In this document: piece by piece, positions 55,080 to 64,000 of the stretch
Layout of the letters: each line of letters starts with the position of its first letter
Numbering within the stretch: position 1 is the first letter of the stretch
Origin: Sphingomonadaceae bacterium
GTDB lineage: Bacteria; Pseudomonadota; Alphaproteobacteria; Sphingomonadales; Sphingomonadaceae
Assembly: GCA_030147805.1 (NCBI GenBank)
Contig: JASBUR010000008.1
Coordinates: 124,001 to 188,000, forward strand
DNA: 64,000 nt
Reading direction: 5' to 3'
The notes under the pieces: generated by a model
Databases searched by the model: none
Told to the model about the DNA's origin: nothing
The model's input: the letters and a program-made list of their open reading frames with translations, nothing else
Position numbers and translations under genes: made by a program

Positions 55080-55289
55080 TCAGCTGCCCTGGGCGCGTGT
55101 CACGAGCTGATAGCGGCCTTCAAGGTTCACCTCCCGATCGCCTACGCGGCACCATCCGCCCCGCGCCGCCTCGACGCACTCGACAGTGATGTCGTTATAT
55201 TCCCCGACCTCGATCACCTTCTGTCGGTCGCTTCCGTCCCTGGTCACGATGTCGCCAATCGCGAATGAGCGCCCTAGATCCTTTGTCAT
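55080..55289 (-). CDS. Small phage protein (69 aa)
   Basis: A beta-rich, SH3-like-sized protein (IGDIVTRDGSDRQKVIEV, then CRVGDREVNLEGRYQLV). Similar short early proteins bind nucleic acid or host factors. Its ATG overlaps the stop of the DnaC-like gene, so it is co-translated. No family recognised. Confidence 0.65.
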   Translation of the reverse strand: MTKDLGRSFAIGDIVTRDGSDRQKVIEVGEYNDITVECVEAARGGWCRVGDREVNLEGRYQLVTRAQGS

Positions 55290-56092
55290 CGCGTTCGGTA
55301 GTCATCCCAGCCGAACGTCAGCACCACACCATCCCCGTCCTGCAGCCGCGACACCGCCCGCTCGCCGAGGTATGCCTTCATGCCGTTGAGGTCGACGTTG
55401 CCGGCGGCGATCGTCGGCTTCAGCTGCTGATACCGCAGGTCGATCACTCGGTGCAGCAGCGCACGCTCGGCATCGGTTCCGTACTGCACGCCGATCTCGT
55501 CGATCAGCAGCAGGTCTGGCGCCACGAAGCGCGCGATGACGGACGCCTCATCCTCCTTCGCGCTGCGCGCCCAGCTGGCCTTGATCGCGGCGATCATCGA
55601 CCAGGCGTCGGTGTAGAGCGGTTGGCAGCGGCCATGCAGTGCCAGTGCTGCGGCGCAGAGCAGGTGCGTCTTCCCCGTCCCCGGGCGGCCGATCAGCATC
55701 AGGCCGCTGCCGACCTTCCGCCGCGTATCGAAGCGCTCGCAGTAGAGCCGCACCGTCCGCAGCACCTTCGCCTGGTCACTGCCCGCCGGCGCCTCGTAGT
55801 TGTCGAAGGTCGCGCCGCGGAAGCGAACCGGCACGCCGAGCGCCACCATGCGCGCCTCGGTGCGGCGCCGCGTCTCGTCGGCTTCGCGCTGCGCCTGCTC
55901 GTGGCGGCGCCGCGCCTCGTCCTCGGCTTCGCATGTCGCGCAGCTCGGGTCGAAGTCGAGCCGGCGCCCGCCGACCCAGACGTACGACACCCGGCCGATG
56001 AAGCTTCCATGCCGGGCGCAGTTGAACGGCTGTTCGGGCCCGCACTCCTCGCGCGGGGCTTCGGCTTCAGTGGGCAGCGGCTGCGTGGCCAT
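55286..56092 (-). CDS. DnaC-like helicase loader (AAA+ ATPase)
   Basis: 268 aa. Walker A GRPGTGKT at residues 135-142, Walker B LLLIDEIG near 195-202 and a sensor region with TIAAGNVDL are those of DnaC/IstB-type loaders. An N-terminal Cys cluster (C17, C25, C51, C54) could bind zinc. It delivers the host DnaB helicase to the phage origin. It overlaps the end of the DUF1376 gene by 26 nt, the usual initiator-loader pair. Confidence 0.9.
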   Translation of the reverse strand: MATQPLPTEAEAPREECGPEQPFNCARHGSFIGRVSYVWVGGRRLDFDPSCATCEAEDEARRRHEQAQREADETRRRTEARMVALGVPVRFRGATFDNYEAPAGSDQAKVLRTVRLYCERFDTRRKVGSGLMLIGRPGTGKTHLLCAAALALHGRCQPLYTDAWSMIAAIKASWARSAKEDEASVIARFVAPDLLLIDEIGVQYGTDAERALLHRVIDLRYQQLKPTIAAGNVDLNGMKAYLGERAVSRLQDGDGVVLTFGWDDYRTR

Positions 56093-57101
56093 CGTCTATC
56101 TCCCAGCGGCTGAGGCGCTGCTCGCGAGCAGCAATCTGTTCGGGGGTCTCGTCGAAGCTGGTGGCGGGTTCGGCCATGCCGAGGCCGTTGCCGCGGCGGG
56201 GACGGCCGGCGCCGGTCGCGCCCGCTGCCTTGGCGGCACGTCGGGCGATCGCCTGGCGCACCGGGGCGTCGAAGTAGTTCAGCGAATGGATGGGCACCTG
56301 GCTGATGGCGACCGTGTCGCGGATCAGCTCGATGATGTCTGTCTCGAAGACCGCACCTGCGTCCAGCCACTCGCGGACGATCTGCTGGCTGCGGACGATC
56401 TGGCCGGGGTCGATGTTCCGGACGCCGGCCGTGCGGCACACATGGTCGGCAAGCTTGAGGTAATCGACCTCGGCAGCCGGCTCGCTCGCGCCCACGCCAA
56501 CATCAACCACCCTAGACCCGGTCACTGTCCCTGTCTCTTGGGACCCCGGTGGTAGTCCCGTTGCGCTCCCGGTGGGAGGCGTGGCGGCTCCCACCGGGAG
56601 CGCCTTGGCAGCGCGTCGGGAGAGCGCCTTGGACTGCGGGTTGAGTGCCGCCAGCATTCCGACGGCCTCGGCGAGCGCGGCATCGAAAGGCTGTGGGTCG
56701 AAGGTGTGGCTGTAGCGGCGCGCATTGCCGGCGCCGCTCGACTTGCGCTGCGCGACCTTCTCGATCCACGCCTCGAGCGCCATCTCGGCGACGACCTTGT
56801 GATAGAGCCGGCCGTCGCTCGCCTTCACCCAGCCGCGTAGCGCTTCCGCCTTCAGCTTGCGCCAGGTGCGCAGGTCGCGCCCAAGGCCCGCCAGCTTCAC
56901 AAGCTGCGTGTCGTCGTCGGCGAGCGAAGCGGCAGGCACCTGATGCCAACTCGAAAGCCAGAGGTTGAAGCCCGCCCGCCAGGCGCCGTCGTCGGCGATG
57001 GCGTCGAACTCCGACGCGCGCAGGCGCACGATGTCGATCATCATCCGCGGGAAATCGCGCAGGTCGCAGGCGGCAGGTGTCATGGGTTCAGGTTCGTTCA
57101 T
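56067..57101 (-). CDS. DUF1376-containing replication protein
   Basis: 344 aa. The N-terminal part has the DUF1376 (YdaU-like) pattern: MMIDIVRLRASEF, then FNLWLSSWHQVPAASLADDDTQL and KASDGRLYHKVVAEMALEAW. A Pro/Thr/Gly linker follows (about 165-205), and then a C-terminal helical region. Such proteins serve as replication initiators in phages and are nearly always followed by a DnaC-type loader, as here. It likely binds the phage origin, possibly within its own gene. Confidence 0.85.
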   Translation of the reverse strand: MNEPEPMTPAACDLRDFPRMMIDIVRLRASEFDAIADDGAWRAGFNLWLSSWHQVPAASLADDDTQLVKLAGLGRDLRTWRKLKAEALRGWVKASDGRLYHKVVAEMALEAWIEKVAQRKSSGAGNARRYSHTFDPQPFDAALAEAVGMLAALNPQSKALSRRAAKALPVGAATPPTGSATGLPPGSQETGTVTGSRVVDVGVGASEPAAEVDYLKLADHVCRTAGVRNIDPGQIVRSQQIVREWLDAGAVFETDIIELIRDTVAISQVPIHSLNYFDAPVRQAIARRAAKAAGATGAGRPRRGNGLGMAEPATSFDETPEQIAAREQRLSRWEIDDGHAAAAH

Positions 57102-57110
57102 TGTACTCGC

Positions 57111-57284
57111 CTACGCTGCTGAGTGGTCCAGCTGCCGGGATGCGGCGCTGTGGCATTCACAGATGTCCTCGATGATCATGCGGCGCAGCTCCAGCATCTG
57201 CAGCCTGTCCTCTGCAACCGGGAGAAGATCTATCGCCGCGCCGGGGGCTAGACCGACCTGAAGGATTTCAGGTGAGGTCGTCAT
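57111..57284 (-). CDS. Small acidic phage protein (57 aa)
   Basis: MTTSPEILQVGLAPGAAID..., with a helical Leu-rich middle (VAEDRLQMLELRRMIIEDI) and a CxCH pair near the end. Function unknown. The ATG overlaps the stop of the DndC-like gene (ATGA), which supports that it is translated. Confidence 0.65.
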   Translation of the reverse strand: MTTSPEILQVGLAPGAAIDLLPVAEDRLQMLELRRMIIEDICECHSAASRQLDHSAA

Positions 57285-58519
57285 GCGCCCACCAGTTCGC
57301 GAAAGAGGATCGGCTCGACCGTGCCGTCCGGGTTCTTGCGATCGAGCCACGCATCCATGCTGGGCTCGCTGCCATCCCACTTGTTCGGCCAGGTCCGCGC
57401 TGCGATGAGTTCGCGGATCCTCTCCTCCTCTTCAGCATTGAGGATGTCGACGCCCGGCCGGCCGAGACGCGCAGCGGCGTCGTTGCACCGCGTCTGGATG
57501 TCGAGGACGCGACTGAGCGCCCAGCTGCGGGCCTCGAGCTTCAGCGGCCCGCCCCGCTGCCCCGAAGACGACAGCTTGCCATTCTTGAGCACCTCCGGCT
57601 CTGACTTGCGCAGCCGATGCTTGGCGAGGCGCAGTTCGCGGTATAGCGGCTTGAGCTCGAGCAACGGCGTCAAGTGCGTCCAGCCTTCCATGGCGACGAT
57701 CACGTTGAGCGCGATGTCCTCGCTGGCCAGCGGGCAGCCGATGCAACCGGTCCTAGCGGCGATGTCGCGCGCCTGATCGTCGCCGCCATATGCATCGACG
57801 AGGATCCGGGTGTCCCAACCGCCGAACTCGCGCATGGGCGCGAACGCGACCAGCCAGTCGAAGACGTTGCAGACCCGCCAGTGCAGGATCGGCGCCAGCG
57901 TTGCCACGCGGCCGCGGATGCCCGGGCTGTCGGGCAGTACCTGCTGATACCACCCCTGCCCGCACTCGGCGCCATCCTTCGAACACGACATGGCGATCCG
58001 GCCGTCGCGCACCGCGCTCTCGCCCTCGCGGACGCCGGTCAGCATGAGGATCGAGCCCTCGACGCCGGCGAGCGCAGAGGCCAGCGCCGCGGACATAGGG
58101 TCGACCTTGATCTGCCGCGTGCACCAGCGAAGCGTGCCGTTGTTCGGTGGCGGGACACCGCGTCCGAGCATGTAGACCATGAAGCGCTTGTCGAGCGGCG
58201 CCCGAACCACCTGAAGGTCGATCCACGGCCGCTGCGCCAGCTTTGCCATGATTGCCGCAGCGGCAGCCTGGATCGGCGGAAGCTCTTGCCGGGTGTCGGC
58301 GTAGTAGACGCGGAGCACATCGGGCTGGGTCAGCTCGCCCGCCTCGATGAGGTGGATGAGCAGCGTGAGCAGCAATGTCGAATCCTTGCCGCCCGACCAC
58401 GCGACGGCCTTGTGCCTGTGCTCGCTCCAATAGGCCTTGAGCGACTGCAAGGTCAGCTCGACAGCCTCCTCGTGCACCATGCGGGCGTCGCCAGCGAAGA
58501 TGTTGGCTTGCCGCGTCAT
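57281..58519 (-). CDS. PAPS-reductase/DndC-like PP-loop protein
   Basis: 412 aa. The ATP-pyrophosphatase loop SGGKDS is at residues 42-47. Further blocks are RWCTRQIK (Cys133), TGVREGESAVR, CSKDGAECGQGW and RTGCIGCPLASED (Cys259, Cys262), the cysteine layout of DndC-type proteins that carry an Fe-S cluster. DndC activates sulfur for DNA phosphorothioation; phage PAPS-reductase-like proteins are common but mostly uncharacterised. It is coupled on both sides (ATGA overlaps) and lies directly after a helicase-methyltransferase, suggesting a nucleic-acid modification role. Confidence 0.87.
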   Translation of the reverse strand: MTRQANIFAGDARMVHEEAVELTLQSLKAYWSEHRHKAVAWSGGKDSTLLLTLLIHLIEAGELTQPDVLRVYYADTRQELPPIQAAAAAIMAKLAQRPWIDLQVVRAPLDKRFMVYMLGRGVPPPNNGTLRWCTRQIKVDPMSAALASALAGVEGSILMLTGVREGESAVRDGRIAMSCSKDGAECGQGWYQQVLPDSPGIRGRVATLAPILHWRVCNVFDWLVAFAPMREFGGWDTRILVDAYGGDDQARDIAARTGCIGCPLASEDIALNVIVAMEGWTHLTPLLELKPLYRELRLAKHRLRKSEPEVLKNGKLSSSGQRGGPLKLEARSWALSRVLDIQTRCNDAAARLGRPGVDILNAEEEERIRELIAARTWPNKWDGSEPSMDAWLDRKNPDGTVEPILFRELVGA

Positions 58520-61227
58520 GCCGCCTCCGCGTCTGCGCCGAGCAGCGCGAACATCGTCGGCATGGCGATCTTGTCCTCGGCGGCGCGCGTATAGCGGACC
58601 GCATCCGGGTAATATTTATCGCCGTTGAGCTCGACGCCGAGCCCGCGCCGGCCGAGCGCCACCGCGCGCGCCGGCACGGTGCCGATGCCCGCGAAGGGGT
58701 CGAACACCAACTCGCCCGGCATCGAGCGCAGCCGGATGAGCCGGTCGACGATATCGATCTGGAGAGGGCATACGTGCTTCTCGCGGTTGCCGAGCGACTG
58801 CTCGTTGTTGAGCGTCCGCATCCGCGTGATGTCGCTCCACACCTGATCGCTGACCGCTTCGGGTGCGAGGCTCATGTAAGTCCGCGGCAGCCCGCCGCGC
58901 GGGTCGGCGGGGTCGCGGCCCGCCACGAGCTCGCCGAGGCGGACATGCTCCTCATGGTCGTAGATCGTGCCCTGCTGCGCTTCCTTGAACGCCTTGGGCA
59001 GCAGCGACGTCGGCAGCTTGGCCAGCTCGTCCGCGGTGAGGAAGCGGTCGCCCGACGATCGCCAGTGAGCGTGCGCGTCCACCTGCCACCGCGCCAGGCT
59101 GTACCCCTCCCCAGGGAGGGGTGTGAGCTCCCGGTGGTAGGGCTGGGGCTCGGCGTCCGGATCGTCGAAGTCGATGCACCGCGGCGGCTCGAGGCTCACT
59201 GGTGTGTCGGCATAGCCGCGCGATCGGTCGGTCTGCGGCCGGCGGAAGATGAGAACATATTCCGGCACGCCGGCGCCCATCTTCGTGCTGTCCTTGAGCA
59301 GCTCGCCGTAGCTGAGGCGGTAGGTCTGGTTGTTCTCGCGCACGACATCGGTGTCGACGGTGATGCGCGCCATCAGGTCGAAGCCGTGGCGGCGGAAGTG
59401 CGCGCTGACCTCGTCGCTGAACGGATCGAGCGTCGGCGCGCCCTTGCCGGTGACGTTGCCGAATCGGATGCGGTCCTTGACGTGCACGCACGCCAGCCGC
59501 CCGGGCTTCAGGATCCGGAGCAGGTTCGGCGTCAGAAAGTCCATTTGCGCGAAGAAGTGGCCGTTGTCGTCGGTGTGGCCGAAGTCGTTGTAGCTCGGCG
59601 TGTACTCATACTGGTTGCCGAACGGCACCGAGGTGACGATCAGGTCCACCGACGCGTCCGGCATCGCCGCCGTCTCAACGACGCTGTCGTTGTTGATCAT
59701 CCGCCACCGCGGCGCCGGGCCGTCGGGCGTCTCGATGATGTCGCCGACCGCCTCCTGGCGGACGCAGCCGATCGACCGGTAGAAGCCGCTGTCGGCGTCG
59801 ATGTGGTTGAGGCCGTAGCGGCGGATCAGCTCGGACATCCGCTCGACGAGCAGCTTGTGATCCTTCCACTTGCGCAGCAGGTCGCGCAGGATGGCAGCTT
59901 CGGTCTCGGCATAGATCAGGTCGATGACGACGGTCTTCGACTGCATGAAGCGCCACACCCGATGCACCGCCTGCAGGAAATCGTGGAACTTGTACCCGAC
60001 GCCGACGAAGATTTCCCGGTGGCAGTGGTATTGGAAGTTCCGACCGGCGCCGAGCATAGACGGCTTGGCGGCCAGCCGGGCCACCCTGCCCTCGGCAAAA
60101 TCGTCGGCGAGCGCCTCGTTCTGCTCGATGCGCTGCTTTCCGAAGACCGACGCGACCTCTGGCAGCGCCGCCTCGATCGCCTTCCGCTCATCCTCGAGAT
60201 CGTGCCAGAGGATGAAGTGATCATCCGGCGACGCCTCGACGATCTCGACGGCCTTGGCGACGCGCAGGTCGATGGTCGACCGCTTTTCGCGCGCCGCCTG
60301 CACCACGCCGATCGCCGCGTCGCGGAACAGCGCCGCCTGTCCGCGATCGTCGGCGTCGGTACCGGCGATATCGGTCTTCACCTCGTGGAAGCGCACGTCG
60401 AGCTCGGGGAGGACATAGCCGTCGTCCGGCAGGCCGAGGTCTGAAGGCTTCTGAAGGAAGCATGCCCAGCTGCTGACCCAGAGCCAGAACTCCTCCTCCT
60501 TGTGCGGATAGAGGGTGAGGTCGCCCGCCTTCTCGCTGTTGCGCTGGAAGAAGCGCGTCAGCGCCTGGCCGCTGTCCATGATGCCGAGGAAGGCGGCGTA
60601 GTGGATCAGCTCCTTATACCGGTTCGGCGCCGGCATGGCGGTGGCCACCAGCCGGTAGGGCACGCGCGCGAACATCGGCACGAAGATCTGATAGGTCTCC
60701 GACCCATAGTCGCGAAGGCAGGCCGCCTCGTCGAGGCTGGCGAAGGTGAACAGGTCGACGTCGATCTTGCCGTCGCGCACCGTCTCGATGTTGGTCAGGA
60801 AGTGGCGCGCGCCCTCCGCGGCGAGCGCCAGCACCTCGTCCGTCGACCGCACGAAGCGCAGGTCGATGCCGAGCAGCGCGGCGTCCTTCAACATCTCCGT
60901 CCGCGCGCCGAGCGGTCCGACGATCAGCGCCAGGTGCGGCAGCTCGGCGCGGCGCGGCGCGATCCCGTGCCGGAAGGCAAGCGCCAGCACCGCACGGCTC
61001 GCCGACAGCTGCATCGTCGACTTGCCGAGCCCGAAGGCGGCGAAGATCGCGCGGCGGCCGCCCTGCACCGCCCAGCGCACGATGTGCCGGTGATGCGCCT
61101 TCTCCGGCTTGCCGTCGGAGCGGTCGAGCAGGATGTCGGCGTCGGTGCACGGCAGCCCGAGCATCGGCGCCGGCGGGCGCTTCGCCTCGAGGAAGGCGCG
61201 ATAGGCGTCGGGCGCGAGCGTGGTCAT
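58516..61227 (-). CDS. Helicase-DNA methyltransferase fusion protein
   Basis: 903 aa with two parts. Residues about 40-430 form an SF2-like helicase: Walker A-type AFGLGKST (64-71), a DEAA Walker B in SLDEAAC (165-170) and a motif VI-like QAVHRVWRFMQ (419-429). Residues about 505-900 are a beta-class DNA methyltransferase: motif IV in TSVPFG (532-537, in place of the usual S/D/N-PP-Y/F) and, later, motif I DPFAGIGT (843-850). The motif order IV then I is that of many N4/N6 enzymes. It may remodel DNA while methylating it, or methylate unusual sites. ATG 61227 shares a base with the previous stop; a start at 61599 is rejected. Confidence 0.88.
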   Translation of the reverse strand: MTTLAPDAYRAFLEAKRPPAPMLGLPCTDADILLDRSDGKPEKAHHRHIVRWAVQGGRRAIFAAFGLGKSTMQLSASRAVLALAFRHGIAPRRAELPHLALIVGPLGARTEMLKDAALLGIDLRFVRSTDEVLALAAEGARHFLTNIETVRDGKIDVDLFTFASLDEAACLRDYGSETYQIFVPMFARVPYRLVATAMPAPNRYKELIHYAAFLGIMDSGQALTRFFQRNSEKAGDLTLYPHKEEEFWLWVSSWACFLQKPSDLGLPDDGYVLPELDVRFHEVKTDIAGTDADDRGQAALFRDAAIGVVQAAREKRSTIDLRVAKAVEIVEASPDDHFILWHDLEDERKAIEAALPEVASVFGKQRIEQNEALADDFAEGRVARLAAKPSMLGAGRNFQYHCHREIFVGVGYKFHDFLQAVHRVWRFMQSKTVVIDLIYAETEAAILRDLLRKWKDHKLLVERMSELIRRYGLNHIDADSGFYRSIGCVRQEAVGDIIETPDGPAPRWRMINNDSVVETAAMPDASVDLIVTSVPFGNQYEYTPSYNDFGHTDDNGHFFAQMDFLTPNLLRILKPGRLACVHVKDRIRFGNVTGKGAPTLDPFSDEVSAHFRRHGFDLMARITVDTDVVRENNQTYRLSYGELLKDSTKMGAGVPEYVLIFRRPQTDRSRGYADTPVSLEPPRCIDFDDPDAEPQPYHRELTPLPGEGYSLARWQVDAHAHWRSSGDRFLTADELAKLPTSLLPKAFKEAQQGTIYDHEEHVRLGELVAGRDPADPRGGLPRTYMSLAPEAVSDQVWSDITRMRTLNNEQSLGNREKHVCPLQIDIVDRLIRLRSMPGELVFDPFAGIGTVPARAVALGRRGLGVELNGDKYYPDAVRYTRAAEDKIAMPTMFALLGADAEAA

Positions 61228-61970
61228 CAGAATGCTCCTGACGGGATGCCGCCGAGCGTGCGGATCGGATCGGGCATCGGGATGTGCGGGATGAAGATGA
61301 GCTCGGCACCGGCCGCGGCCGCCGCGAGCTGCTCGTCGAAGGACAGGCGCCGCTTGGGACGGCCGCGCGCCGCCCGCTCCTTGGCGAGCACGTCGGCGAG
61401 GATGATGCGCTTCGCCTCCTTCGCGCTCTTCAGCTTGACGCGCAGCGCGCGATATTCCTCGAGCCGCTCCGGCGGACACCAGGCGGTGTGCGCCAGCCCG
61501 CCCTTCCGGCCTTGCGCCGCGGCGACCTCGGCGGGCAGCGACGTCCGGTACCGCCGAAGCCCTTCGATCGTGCGGGCCCGGGTCTCGGCATCGCGCCACT
61601 GCTTGCGCGCCGCGCGCGAGCGGCGGAGGCGGTTCTTTGTCTTCGCGTTCGTCTGCTTTTGGCTGGCGGTGCGCTTGGCGATCGCTACCGGATCCGCCCC
61701 GATGACCGAGAGGTGCGCGCGGCAGCGCTCGACGCGCGCTTCGTCATCCATCTTGAGCCCGAGGCGGCGGATCGCGGCGCCGGCGGCCCGGTGGTCGCAG
61801 CCGAAGTGCGCAGCCAGGTCCTTCAGCGAGACCTTGCGGGCGATCAGGCCCTCGACTTCGCCGCGCCGGCCCTTCCAGTCGATGTACGGCCGCACCGGCT
61901 TGGCCCGGCCGTCGAGGCCGAGCTGCCGCCCTTCTTCGGCGCGTTGGTCCCAGTCGATACGCTTCTTCAT
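61227..61970 (-). CDS. DNA-binding-type phage protein
   Basis: 247 aa, very basic in the middle (NRLRRSRAARKQWRDAETRAR). The N-terminal half has a helix-turn-helix-like SLKDLAAHFGCDHRAAGAAIRRLGL, and the C-terminal half has AHTAWCPPERLEEYRALRVKLKSAKEA, a block found in sphingomonad and rhizobial phage early proteins. It could be a transcription or nucleotide-modification accessory factor. It starts with TGATG overlap after the cysteine-rich protein and ends with the same overlap. Confidence 0.7.
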   Translation of the reverse strand: MKKRIDWDQRAEEGRQLGLDGRAKPVRPYIDWKGRRGEVEGLIARKVSLKDLAAHFGCDHRAAGAAIRRLGLKMDDEARVERCRAHLSVIGADPVAIAKRTASQKQTNAKTKNRLRRSRAARKQWRDAETRARTIEGLRRYRTSLPAEVAAAQGRKGGLAHTAWCPPERLEEYRALRVKLKSAKEAKRIILADVLAKERAARGRPKRRLSFDEQLAAAAAGAELIFIPHIPMPDPIRTLGGIPSGAF

Positions 61971-62707
61971 CAATGCCTCGCGAAGGAGATGTTGCGGGTG
62001 GTCGACCAGCAGAGCGCGCAGGTGGCGCAGCAGTCGGTGGCGCCGGTCTGCGCCGGGCAGGGAATGGCCGACGTCGGCGTGCCCGGGTCGGCGATCTCGG
62101 CGCCGCGCGTCTCCAGCCCGCGGTTGGAAAAGCGGATGGCGAAGCGGTCCCACATCATCCGCGACAGGCCGTTCAGCAGCTTGCCGATCGGGTCGGTGTC
62201 GGGGCAGCGCGCCGTGAAGCCGAAGACGCGCAGGCCGGGGATGCGGGCCAACGCGCGTTTCCAGAGATAGACGTAGGCGATAGAATAGAAGTCGCCGAGG
62301 ACGTGCAGCCGCACCGCGAATCCGGCCGGGTGCTGCCGCGCGAGCGCGTCGAGCTCGCGGTCGAGCGCGGCCTCGAGGTCGCCACCGGCGACGATCCGCT
62401 GCGCCCAGTTCATCCCGTTGCCGTAGCAATAGGCGAAGGCGGCGCAGTCGCGCGGGCAGGTGGCGCGCTCTTCCAGCGTCAGCGTGTAGATCGGCAGGCC
62501 GCGCCATTTGCCCTTCAGCACCGTCTTGCCGATCTTGCGGCTATTGTGCCCCGACTTCAGCACATGACCGGCGTCGGCCGGCGTCGTGACGCGGTTGCCG
62601 AAGATGGTCCGCGCCGATCGCAGCGCCGGGTCGTAGGCGGGCAGCACGACGCTGTGCCCGGAGGGCTTGATCGACCCGTGTCGGCGGAGCGTGGTCGCGG
62701 TCGGCAT
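61970..62707 (-). CDS. Cysteine-rich phage protein (gp88-like), function unknown
   Basis: 245 aa. Two cysteine clusters stand out: CPRDCAAFAYCYGNGM near residue 90, and a C-terminal CPAQTGATDCCATCALCW. Between them are an LHVLGDFYS and an RVFGFTARCP block. The layout recalls the phage gp88-type family and could bind an Fe-S cluster or zinc. ATG 62707 (TGATG overlap) is preferred to the TTG one codon earlier. It is embedded in a module of DNA methyltransferases and a DndC-like protein, so a base- or nucleotide-modifying role is possible, not shown. Confidence 0.72.
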   Translation of the reverse strand: MPTATTLRRHGSIKPSGHSVVLPAYDPALRSARTIFGNRVTTPADAGHVLKSGHNSRKIGKTVLKGKWRGLPIYTLTLEERATCPRDCAAFAYCYGNGMNWAQRIVAGGDLEAALDRELDALARQHPAGFAVRLHVLGDFYSIAYVYLWKRALARIPGLRVFGFTARCPDTDPIGKLLNGLSRMMWDRFAIRFSNRGLETRGAEIADPGTPTSAIPCPAQTGATDCCATCALCWSTTRNISFARH

Positions 62708-63804
62708 CAAAGGATCTCCCCGACGACGCCGAAGCGGATGCCGTCATCGCTCGTGCGCAGCACCGGGCGCTCGATGACGCCCAGCCGCCTCGCGGCCTCG
62801 AGCTGCTCTTCGAAATTGGCGAAGCGCAGCTTGAACGGCTTCGGCGCAACGTCAGCCTTGGCCGCTGGTGGAGACGTCGGCGCCGGCCGGACGGCGGGGA
62901 TGGCAACCTTCGCAGGCTCAGGCTTCGGCGCGACGGGCGCGGGCGCGGGTTGCCGCGGCACGGGAGGGGGAGAGATGCGCGGCGGAAGGTCGGCGGCCGC
63001 CGCGGCGCGCGGCTCGGTGGCGTAGACCTCCGCGATTACCGCCTGCATCGCCAGTCGGCGCGGCTGGCCGCTCGCCAGGCGGCGCTGGGTGGCGACCTTC
63101 ACCCAGGTCGATTGCGAGCGACGCGACAGGCAGCGCACGGCGGCGGCCCGATCGAAGCCGCTGGCCGCGCCCTCCTTCGCCGCGAAGCCGAACAGTCCCT
63201 CGAGCATCTGCCCGGCGAACTGCAGGACATGGCCGTCGAATGCCTCGGCGAGCAGGTCGAGCGCGCGGCGCGTCGCCGCCGGGCCGATGACGCGATAGGC
63301 GCGCTGAATGCCGGGAACGCAGAACAGCATGCCCGGCTTCCAGGCTGTGTAGTTCGAATGCGGCGCGACCTTCAGCCCCGCGGCGGTGATCATCGCCTCG
63401 ATCGCCGCCGCCTCCGTGTCGCCGGCCGCCAGCGCGGCGCGGTAGAGGTCGACCTTGCCCAGCGGCTTGCGCTGCTGGTTGATCGACACGAACGCCGCAG
63501 CCTCGTCGCTGAGGCTGGCGTAGGCGGTGACGACGCAGGGCAGCTCATCGATGTCGCCGCGCAGCTGCGCCGCGGCGTGGCGATGCTGGCCGTCGACGAC
63601 GAACAGCGAACCGTCTGCGCGGCGGGTGACGGCGAGCGGCTGGCACAGCGACCAGTCCCAGAAGCGCGCGATCTTGCGGATCAGCGTGCGCGACGTCTCA
63701 TTGTCGGTCGACCGCTGGTAGCTCGCATCGACGCTGAGCGCGGCGACGGGCAGCCACTCCATCGTCGGCCGCTCGCCGACCGGCGGGTTGAAGGCGGGGT
63801 TCAC
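62707..63804 (-). CDS. ParB/DGQHR-domain phage protein (DUF6551-like)
   Basis: 365 aa from a GTG overlapping the methyltransferase stop (GTGA). The N-terminal ParB/Srx-like domain has VDASYQRST, the LAVTRRADGSLFVVDGQHRHAAA motif and FVSINQQRKPLGKVD. A middle helical domain follows, then a long Pro/Ala linker (about 275-320) and a small C-terminal domain. DGQHR-type domains occur in phage ParB-like proteins and in DndB-like components of DNA-modification systems. It could bind or nick DNA, or guide modification. Confidence 0.83.
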   Translation of the reverse strand: MNPAFNPPVGERPTMEWLPVAALSVDASYQRSTDNETSRTLIRKIARFWDWSLCQPLAVTRRADGSLFVVDGQHRHAAAQLRGDIDELPCVVTAYASLSDEAAAFVSINQQRKPLGKVDLYRAALAAGDTEAAAIEAMITAAGLKVAPHSNYTAWKPGMLFCVPGIQRAYRVIGPAATRRALDLLAEAFDGHVLQFAGQMLEGLFGFAAKEGAASGFDRAAAVRCLSRRSQSTWVKVATQRRLASGQPRRLAMQAVIAEVYATEPRAAAAADLPPRISPPPVPRQPAPAPVAPKPEPAKVAIPAVRPAPTSPPAAKADVAPKPFKLRFANFEEQLEAARRLGVIERPVLRTSDDGIRFGVVGEIL

Positions 63805-64000
63805 AGCCGCACCTCCTGGCTCGAGGTGTCGACGGCGAGCGCGATCTCGAGCGGGCTGACCCAGATGGCGTCCGACGAAAGCTCGAAGCTGTCGCCCGCC
63901 CACGCCTTCAGCAGCGTGCGGCCCATGACGCCGGCGACGCTGCGCGCGGCCGCGCTCGGCACCGCGTTGCCGATCTGCTCGCGCCACTCGGCATCGGATT
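63801..64000 (-). CDS. C5-cytosine DNA methyltransferase, C-terminal end (cut by window edge)
   Basis: Only the last 65 codons are present. They contain QIGNAVP, the motif X signature of Dcm-family cytosine-C5 methyltransferases, followed by a helical end and a ~30-residue tail (KAWAGDSFELSSD...). The catalytic Pro-Cys and SAM-binding motifs lie past the right edge. It is the first visible gene of the early module and is coupled to the ParB-like gene. It may protect phage DNA from host restriction. Confidence 0.8.
   Translation of the reverse strand, partial: SDAEWREQIGNAVPSAAARSVAGVMGRTLLKAWAGDSFELSSDAIWVSPLEIALAVDTSSQEVRL

Follow-up and report, generated by a model that had tools for sequence, protein, structure and literature searches.

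A DndC-like phage protein family that preferentially adjoins C5-cytosine methyltransferases, in a prophage operon of probably separable modules

Do six overlapping genes of a prophage form one DNA-modification system, or are they separable modules sharing an operon? The question is raised by the end of a 64,000-nucleotide stretch of a Sphingomonadaceae bacterium (assembly GCA_030147805.1, contig JASBUR010000008.1, positions 124,001 to 188,000; hereafter the window). A preliminary description had listed there a C5-cytosine methyltransferase (C5-MTase) end, a DGQHR/ParB protein, a gp88-like protein, a DNA-binding protein, a helicase-methyltransferase fusion and a DndC/PAPS-reductase-like protein, and had proposed that all six serve one process. 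We searched the proteins against Pfam, PHROGs, NCBIfam and PADLOC profiles and compared gene neighbourhoods in relatives. The DNA-modification character of the genes is supported, and their co-occurrence elsewhere suggests, as the best reading, separable modules stacked in a phage operon. What is of most interest here is less than had been claimed: a phage family, sister to DndC, that is preferentially coupled to C5-methyltransferases.

The DndC-like protein of the window scores 84.3 bits against the DndC profile TIGR03183, for which the curated cut-off is 290.4. It keeps, in common with four aligned DndC proteins, the SGGKDS loop, the segment GxGxxxP...RWCT..K..P, and the motifs GxRxxES and RxGCxxC. 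The cysteines of the DndC motifs GECP and SCG are present in these four (one reads GDCP) and in three DndC-like proteins, and are missing from the 12 aligned close phage members and from the homologue of Thermus phage Tsatsa. The phage family has its own SC-x6-ECGQG insert, found in slightly shorter form in Tsatsa, together with Cys217; in a 43-row alignment, cysteines 133, 179, 186, 217, 259 and 262 are invariant. In a tree of 31 proteins inferred by maximum likelihood, the phage clade is sister to DndC and the DndC-like proteins (joint branch 96/95) and comes out one-sided in 96% of the bootstraps. SspD, Escherichia coli YbdN and CysH fall apart from the phage and DndC group, although CysH of E. 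coli sits on a very long branch (3.39), which makes its exact position uncertain. Tree and motifs put the protein on the DndC side of the dual label it had been given, and the phage DndC-sister family is monophyletic, with a cysteine set of its own.

A place among the sulfate-assimilation PAPS reductases, which the preliminary description had named as the result that would speak against it, was not what we found, as the protein groups with DndC and not with CysH. It is hardly credible, then, that the gene is a true PAPS reductase, an auxiliary metabolic gene (AMG) for sulfate assimilation. Such a role would agree with the Pfam PAPS_reduct match (30.1 bits), with the PHROG label of phrog_12882 (phage PAPS reductase, category 'moron, auxiliary metabolic gene') and with the interpretation of viral PAPS reductases as assimilatory sulfur AMGs (PMC7785012), but E. 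coli CysH reads SFGIQA where the window protein reads SGGKDS, and the CysH active-site motif ECG(L/I)H was not found in the aligned protein; the grouping with DndC also counts against it, subject to the long CysH branch. While viral PAPS reductases have been read as sulfur-metabolism genes, for phrog_12882 the evidence points to DndC-type chemistry, and the label DndC fits better than the database label. The motifs thus support a DndC-side PP-loop enzyme, probably acting in ATP-dependent sulfur transfer, rather than a sulfate-assimilation enzyme.

How close that chemistry lies to DndC is a further matter. A divergent phosphorothioation enzyme, which would place sulfur in the DNA backbone as DndC does, with phage partners in place of DndD and DndE, has in its favour that DndC is nearest in sequence and that the PP-loop, RWCT and CxxC are held in common. 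We consider it improbable: the protein reaches 84 bits against a DndC cut-off of 290, it is without the GECP and SCG cysteines, and a search of the whole genome (91% complete) gave no match to DndD. Apart from the window gene, the whole genome gave no DndC-related match, and such genes are rare in the host family (2/100 genomes, the window's own counted), as expected of a mobile accessory gene.

We collected relatives of the DndC-like gene from viral contigs and from the genomes of named bacteria (chiefly Alpha-, Beta- and Gammaproteobacteria, with a few Bacteroidota), giving 99 non-redundant loci, and called genes nearby when within about 10 kb and adjacent when no more than 400 bp apart on one strand. 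A C5-MTase is nearby in 43 of the 99 loci and adjacent in 25 of these 43, whereas uniform placement would give about 9% adjacency per case (binomial p ~1e-15, a value that is only indicative as phage genes are not uniformly placed). For comparison, gp88 genes adjoin a C5 gene in 1/7 cases, none beyond chance. The DndC-like family is therefore preferentially coupled to C5-methyltransferases. Counting distinct C5 proteins, the C5 gene comes first in 28 pairs and second in seven, and the partner enzymes are not all alike: most have SPDC in motif IV and some, like that of the window, SAPC. Both gene orders and the differing C5 types argue for a repeated, functional association. SPDC occurs in 24 of 29 readable C5-MTases adjoining a DndC-like gene versus 32 of 59 others. 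Examples of such adjoining C5-MTases lie at L005:9905-11995 and L006:15229-17289 in our locus set; the usual form before the catalytic cysteine is (P)PC.

The pair is directly adjacent in phages Dobby, RR1-A and phiC725A and in Pseudomonas phage OQ658365, and other methyltransferases sometimes adjoin the DndC-like gene in relatives. In the window itself, it is the helicase-methyltransferase that directly adjoins the DndC-like gene, with the C5-MTase at a distance of five genes. A ParB gene adjoins the DndC-like gene in only 2/99 loci. DUF5131 genes (Gp37/Gp68, with a CxxC-type motif) lie within about 9 kb in 14 of 88 DndC-like loci, as at L029:3545-4606, and in some loci directly adjoin it (L078, L436). 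Among Bacteroidota, the DndC-like gene is found in Hymenobacter and Salinimicrobium (L443, L444, L445).

AlphaFold gives a model of fair quality for the DndC-like protein (predicted local distance difference test score, pLDDT, 80), with cysteine loops below 50, and we did not read cysteine geometry from these low-confidence loops. The predicted fold is that of the PP-loop ATP pyrophosphatases and PAPS reductases, and among the best structural matches are FAD synthase, GMP synthetase, TilS, LarE, TtuA and NcsA. Neither DndC nor SspD is among the VIA-align matches listed, which excludes nothing; a phmmer search of PDB sequences found no relative. These matches are in keeping with an enzyme that thiolates or amidates tRNA or a nucleotide, like TtcA, NcsA or TilS, its nearness to methyltransferases reflecting no more than an accessory position that both occupy in the early operons of phages. 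That most loci have no adjacent methyltransferase, and that the neighbours are often primase, DnaB-like, DUF5131 and DUF1643 genes, would suit such a role, whereas the tree groups the protein with DndC, and the C5 adjacency, far above the uniform expectation, has no counterpart for gp88. On balance, we regard a tRNA or nucleotide substrate as possible, if doubtful.

We favour instead, with a probability of roughly 0.45, a set of stacked anti-restriction and DNA-modification genes in a prophage early operon, comprising a C5-MTase whose recognition region is built of repeats, the pair of ParB and gp88, a helicase fused to an N6/N4-methyltransferase, and a DndC-like enzyme that probably makes an ATP-dependent, likely sulfur-based DNA modification, often in partnership with C5 methylation. 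The DndC-like enzyme would bind ATP through its SGGKDS loop and adenylate an oxygen of the substrate; sulfur would then be delivered through the RWCT cysteine, perhaps assisted by a metal or Fe-S site built from other invariant cysteines. The substrate would most likely be phage DNA, often also C5-methylated by the neighbouring enzyme, and the product may protect it from host restriction. Sulfur could come from host cysteine desulfurases, since one may be among the class V aminotransferases of the host genome, and IscS can stand in for DndA in some Dnd systems (PMC8569181).

Several observations weigh against this proposal. No C5-MTase lies within 10 kb in 56 of the 99 DndC-like loci, and around the gene of Hymenobacter rigui (L445) no methyltransferase is evident among the open reading frames (ORFs) listed; the prophage-like replication module there, read from its sequence, resembles the surroundings of the window gene in its sliding clamp and in its DUF1376-like, DnaC-like, nuclease and SNF2 genes. 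Together, these loci indicate that pairing with a C5-MTase is not obligatory. Proteins of this fold also act in tRNA, nucleotide and amide chemistry, and the low confidence of the cysteine-rich loops in the model leaves the metal site a prediction from the cysteines only. A more specific idea, that the phage family is a dedicated enzyme for sulfur-containing (or other ATP-activated) hypermodification of bases in DNA that the neighbouring C5-methyltransferase has methylated, needing neither DndD nor DndE and mislabelled as sulfate assimilation, is distinctly doubtful. The preferential adjacency to C5-methyltransferases nevertheless suggests a candidate phage DNA modification and, as Dobby, phiC725A and other phages in isolation carry the pair, nucleoside analysis could answer the question directly.

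The layout of the locus is as follows.

63801..64000, minus strand: C5-cytosine DNA methyltransferase, C-terminal end (PF00145, 56.7 bits; the full gene extends to window-equivalent position 66251)
62707..63804, minus strand: ParB-like protein, DUF6551 (PF20188, 53.9 bits), with a GTG start and a 4-nt overlap with the C5-MTase stop
61970..62707, minus strand: GP88-family protein (PF17338, 25.0 bits, marginal at a cut-off of 24.4; phrog_2554, 100.9 bits)
61227..61970, minus strand: 247-residue protein, possibly helix-turn-helix/DNA-binding (no family matches)
58516..61227, minus strand: SF2-type helicase-N6/N4 DNA methyltransferase fusion, 903 residues (phrog_16, DNA helicase, 305.9 bits; PF01555, N6_N4_Mtase, 51.1 bits)
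57281..58519, minus strand: DndC-like PP-loop ATP pyrophosphatase, 412 residues (phrog_12882, 664 bits; Pfam PAPS_reduct, 30.1 bits)
56067..57101, minus strand: DUF1376-like replication protein (phrog_22470, 130.9 bits; PF07120, 24.5 bits, below the cut-off of 30.1)
55286..56092, minus strand: DnaC-like helicase loader (phrog_50, 191.9 bits)

The six ORFs from the C5-MTase to the DndC-like gene are intact and run head-to-tail, with junction overlaps of 4, 1, 1, 1 and 4 nt, as the preliminary description had it; its domain labels for the C5-MTase end (PF00145), the gp88-like protein (GP88) and the helicase-methyltransferase (phrog_16, N6_N4_Mtase) are likewise borne out. A 179-nt gap separates the run from the downstream DUF1376-like replication gene. 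Upstream of the C5-MTase, the overlapping run goes on through DUF1064, SNF2 helicase, small nuclease-like, sliding clamp and GapR-like genes, and another part of the window holds portal, terminase, capsid, tape-measure and tail-fibre genes. The locus is the replication or early operon of a temperate tailed prophage, so the prophage setting first proposed holds. Because the tight overlaps extend to ordinary replication genes, coupling by 1-4 nt alone is not evidence of one process.

We examined co-occurrence using viral relatives of four of the six genes, with five families testable; a further profile ('smallMT') was ignored as it had drifted into the helicase-methyltransferase family (76/76). 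A DndC-like gene is present in none of 48 gp88 loci, in one of 66 helicase-methyltransferase loci and in one of 25 loci of the window's C5-MTase subfamily, and on these counts we rejected one conserved six-gene system. Apart from the window, DndC-like, C5, ParB and gp88 genes stand together only at L067, L392 and L075; of these three, L392, taken from a genome, seems to be L067 again, its gene spacings being identical. Among the loci examined, all five testable families are together only in the window's own. A control set of DnaC relatives held C5 genes in 1%, helicase-methyltransferase genes in 4% and DndC-like genes in 0%; as these relatives are distant (33-42% identity), they make a weak baseline that we did not use for the main claim.

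A single composite modification pathway formed by all six genes is accordingly very unlikely. Their translational coupling in the window prophage, and the presence of four of the five testable families in L067 and L075, speak for it, but the near-absence of the DndC-like gene from the other gene sets and the continuation of the coupling into ordinary replication genes tell against it. The earlier claim of one process is thus not upheld: gp88 is paired with ParB independently of the rest, and the helicase-methyltransferase and the C5 subfamily mostly occur without a DndC-like gene. The neighbourhood comparison that had been suggested as a check supported the coupling between DndC-like and C5-MTase genes (25/43 adjacent) and not the co-occurrence of six.

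The full C5-MTase, mostly outside the window on the same contig (L002:7801-10251), has 816 residues and carries motifs I, IV, VI, VIII and X as FCGLGG, APCKG, ENV, QSRKR and GNAV. Its catalytic residues are invariant in 18 relatives, as is Asn762 of motif X and, since this asparagine is kept, ordinary S-adenosylmethionine-dependent 5-methylcytosine is the expected product. Carboxymethylation of the CmoX type was considered for this enzyme and rejected: CmoX has Arg350 where HhaI has Asn304 (PMC12783734), whereas the window enzyme has the motif-X asparagine (GNAV) at that place, and all 33 readable C5 enzymes adjoining a DndC-like gene have GN there, none having the arginine. Between motifs VIII and X are about ten tandem repeats of about 40 residues (GVxxWDxPAxTVxGxxxPxxGxxSVADPR), ending in (S/A/C)VADPR and spaced 39-46 residues apart. 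Relatives carry about one to nine ADPR copies, and another C5 group has similar DxPxxTI(T/A) repeats. No tandem repeat is left at the DNA level in this region, which did not fold in the AlphaFold model (pLDDT ~25) and is perhaps a modular recognition region.

The ParB-like protein had been described as DGQHR/ParB. The ParB part stands (DUF6551), whereas the match to the DGQHR profile TIGR03187 is 26.2 bits against a cut-off of 58.85, and that to DpdB 12.7 bits against a curated score of 300, so the protein is neither DndB nor DpdB. The letters DGQHR are nonetheless there, with D71, Q73 and H74 invariant and G72 and R75 at least 90% conserved in 23 relatives. An exact-peptide-pattern scan gave no ParB relatives, and we built the ParB profile from matches in other loci. 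A ParB-like gene is nearby in 17 of the 48 non-redundant gp88 loci and adjacent in 16 of these 17; gp88 and ParB are an independent conserved pair. The gp88 protein has seven near-invariant cysteines (85, 89, 95, 218, 228, 231 and 234 in 46 rows), and in three viral contigs (L144, L147 and L149) ParB and gp88 are fused in one ORF of 557-563 residues.

The helicase-methyltransferase has a Walker A motif (AAFGLGKS at 64), DEAA at 167, TSVPF at 533 and DPFAGIGT at 844, motifs that fit a helicase-N6/N4-methyltransferase fusion, and TS(I/V)PF is typical of 61 aligned relatives; its loci hold a C5-MTase in 22/66. The 247-residue protein had been called DNA-binding, for which we found no family match in Pfam, PHROGs, NCBIfam or PADLOC.

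Set beside known systems, the DndC-like protein is nearest to the DndC clade (TIGR03183), with SGGKDS, RWCT..K..P, GxRxxES and RxGCxxC in common, and differs from it in its score below the cut-off, in having SC-x6-ECGQG and Cys217 in place of the GECP and SCG cysteines, and in lying in a phage operon. Members of phrog_12882 in phages Dobby, RR1-A, phiC725A, Mae-JY29 and Rhizobium RHph_N28_2 belong to the same family, at about 59-67% identity. The PAPS-reductase homologue of Thermus phage Tsatsa (PMC11437467) falls in the same clade and has the SC...ECGQG motif but is only 33% identical and, unlike the window, has no gene annotated as a methyltransferase in the 8.6 kb around it; the function of viral PAPS reductases, its authors write, may lie elsewhere (PMC11437467). 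SspD of the SSP system forms a separate clade, its PADLOC match (31.8 bits) covering part of the PP-loop domain. The match to BrxP of type 4 BREX (45.5 bits) also covers only part of that domain, and a search with PADLOC's BrxP found no full-length BrxP. IbrA/IbrB and YbdN/YbdM resemble the locus in the general pairing of a PP-loop protein with a ParB-like protein, although YbdN belongs to another clade and, unlike the window protein, is without RWCT. Among systems known from experiment, the nearest parallel in which a C5-MTase homologue and an ATP-dependent enzyme act together on phage cytosine is CmoX/CmoY (PMC12783734); there, the second enzyme is AMP-forming and a ParB protein is often present; CmoY is asparagine-synthetase-like, where the ATP-dependent enzyme of the window is DndC-like.

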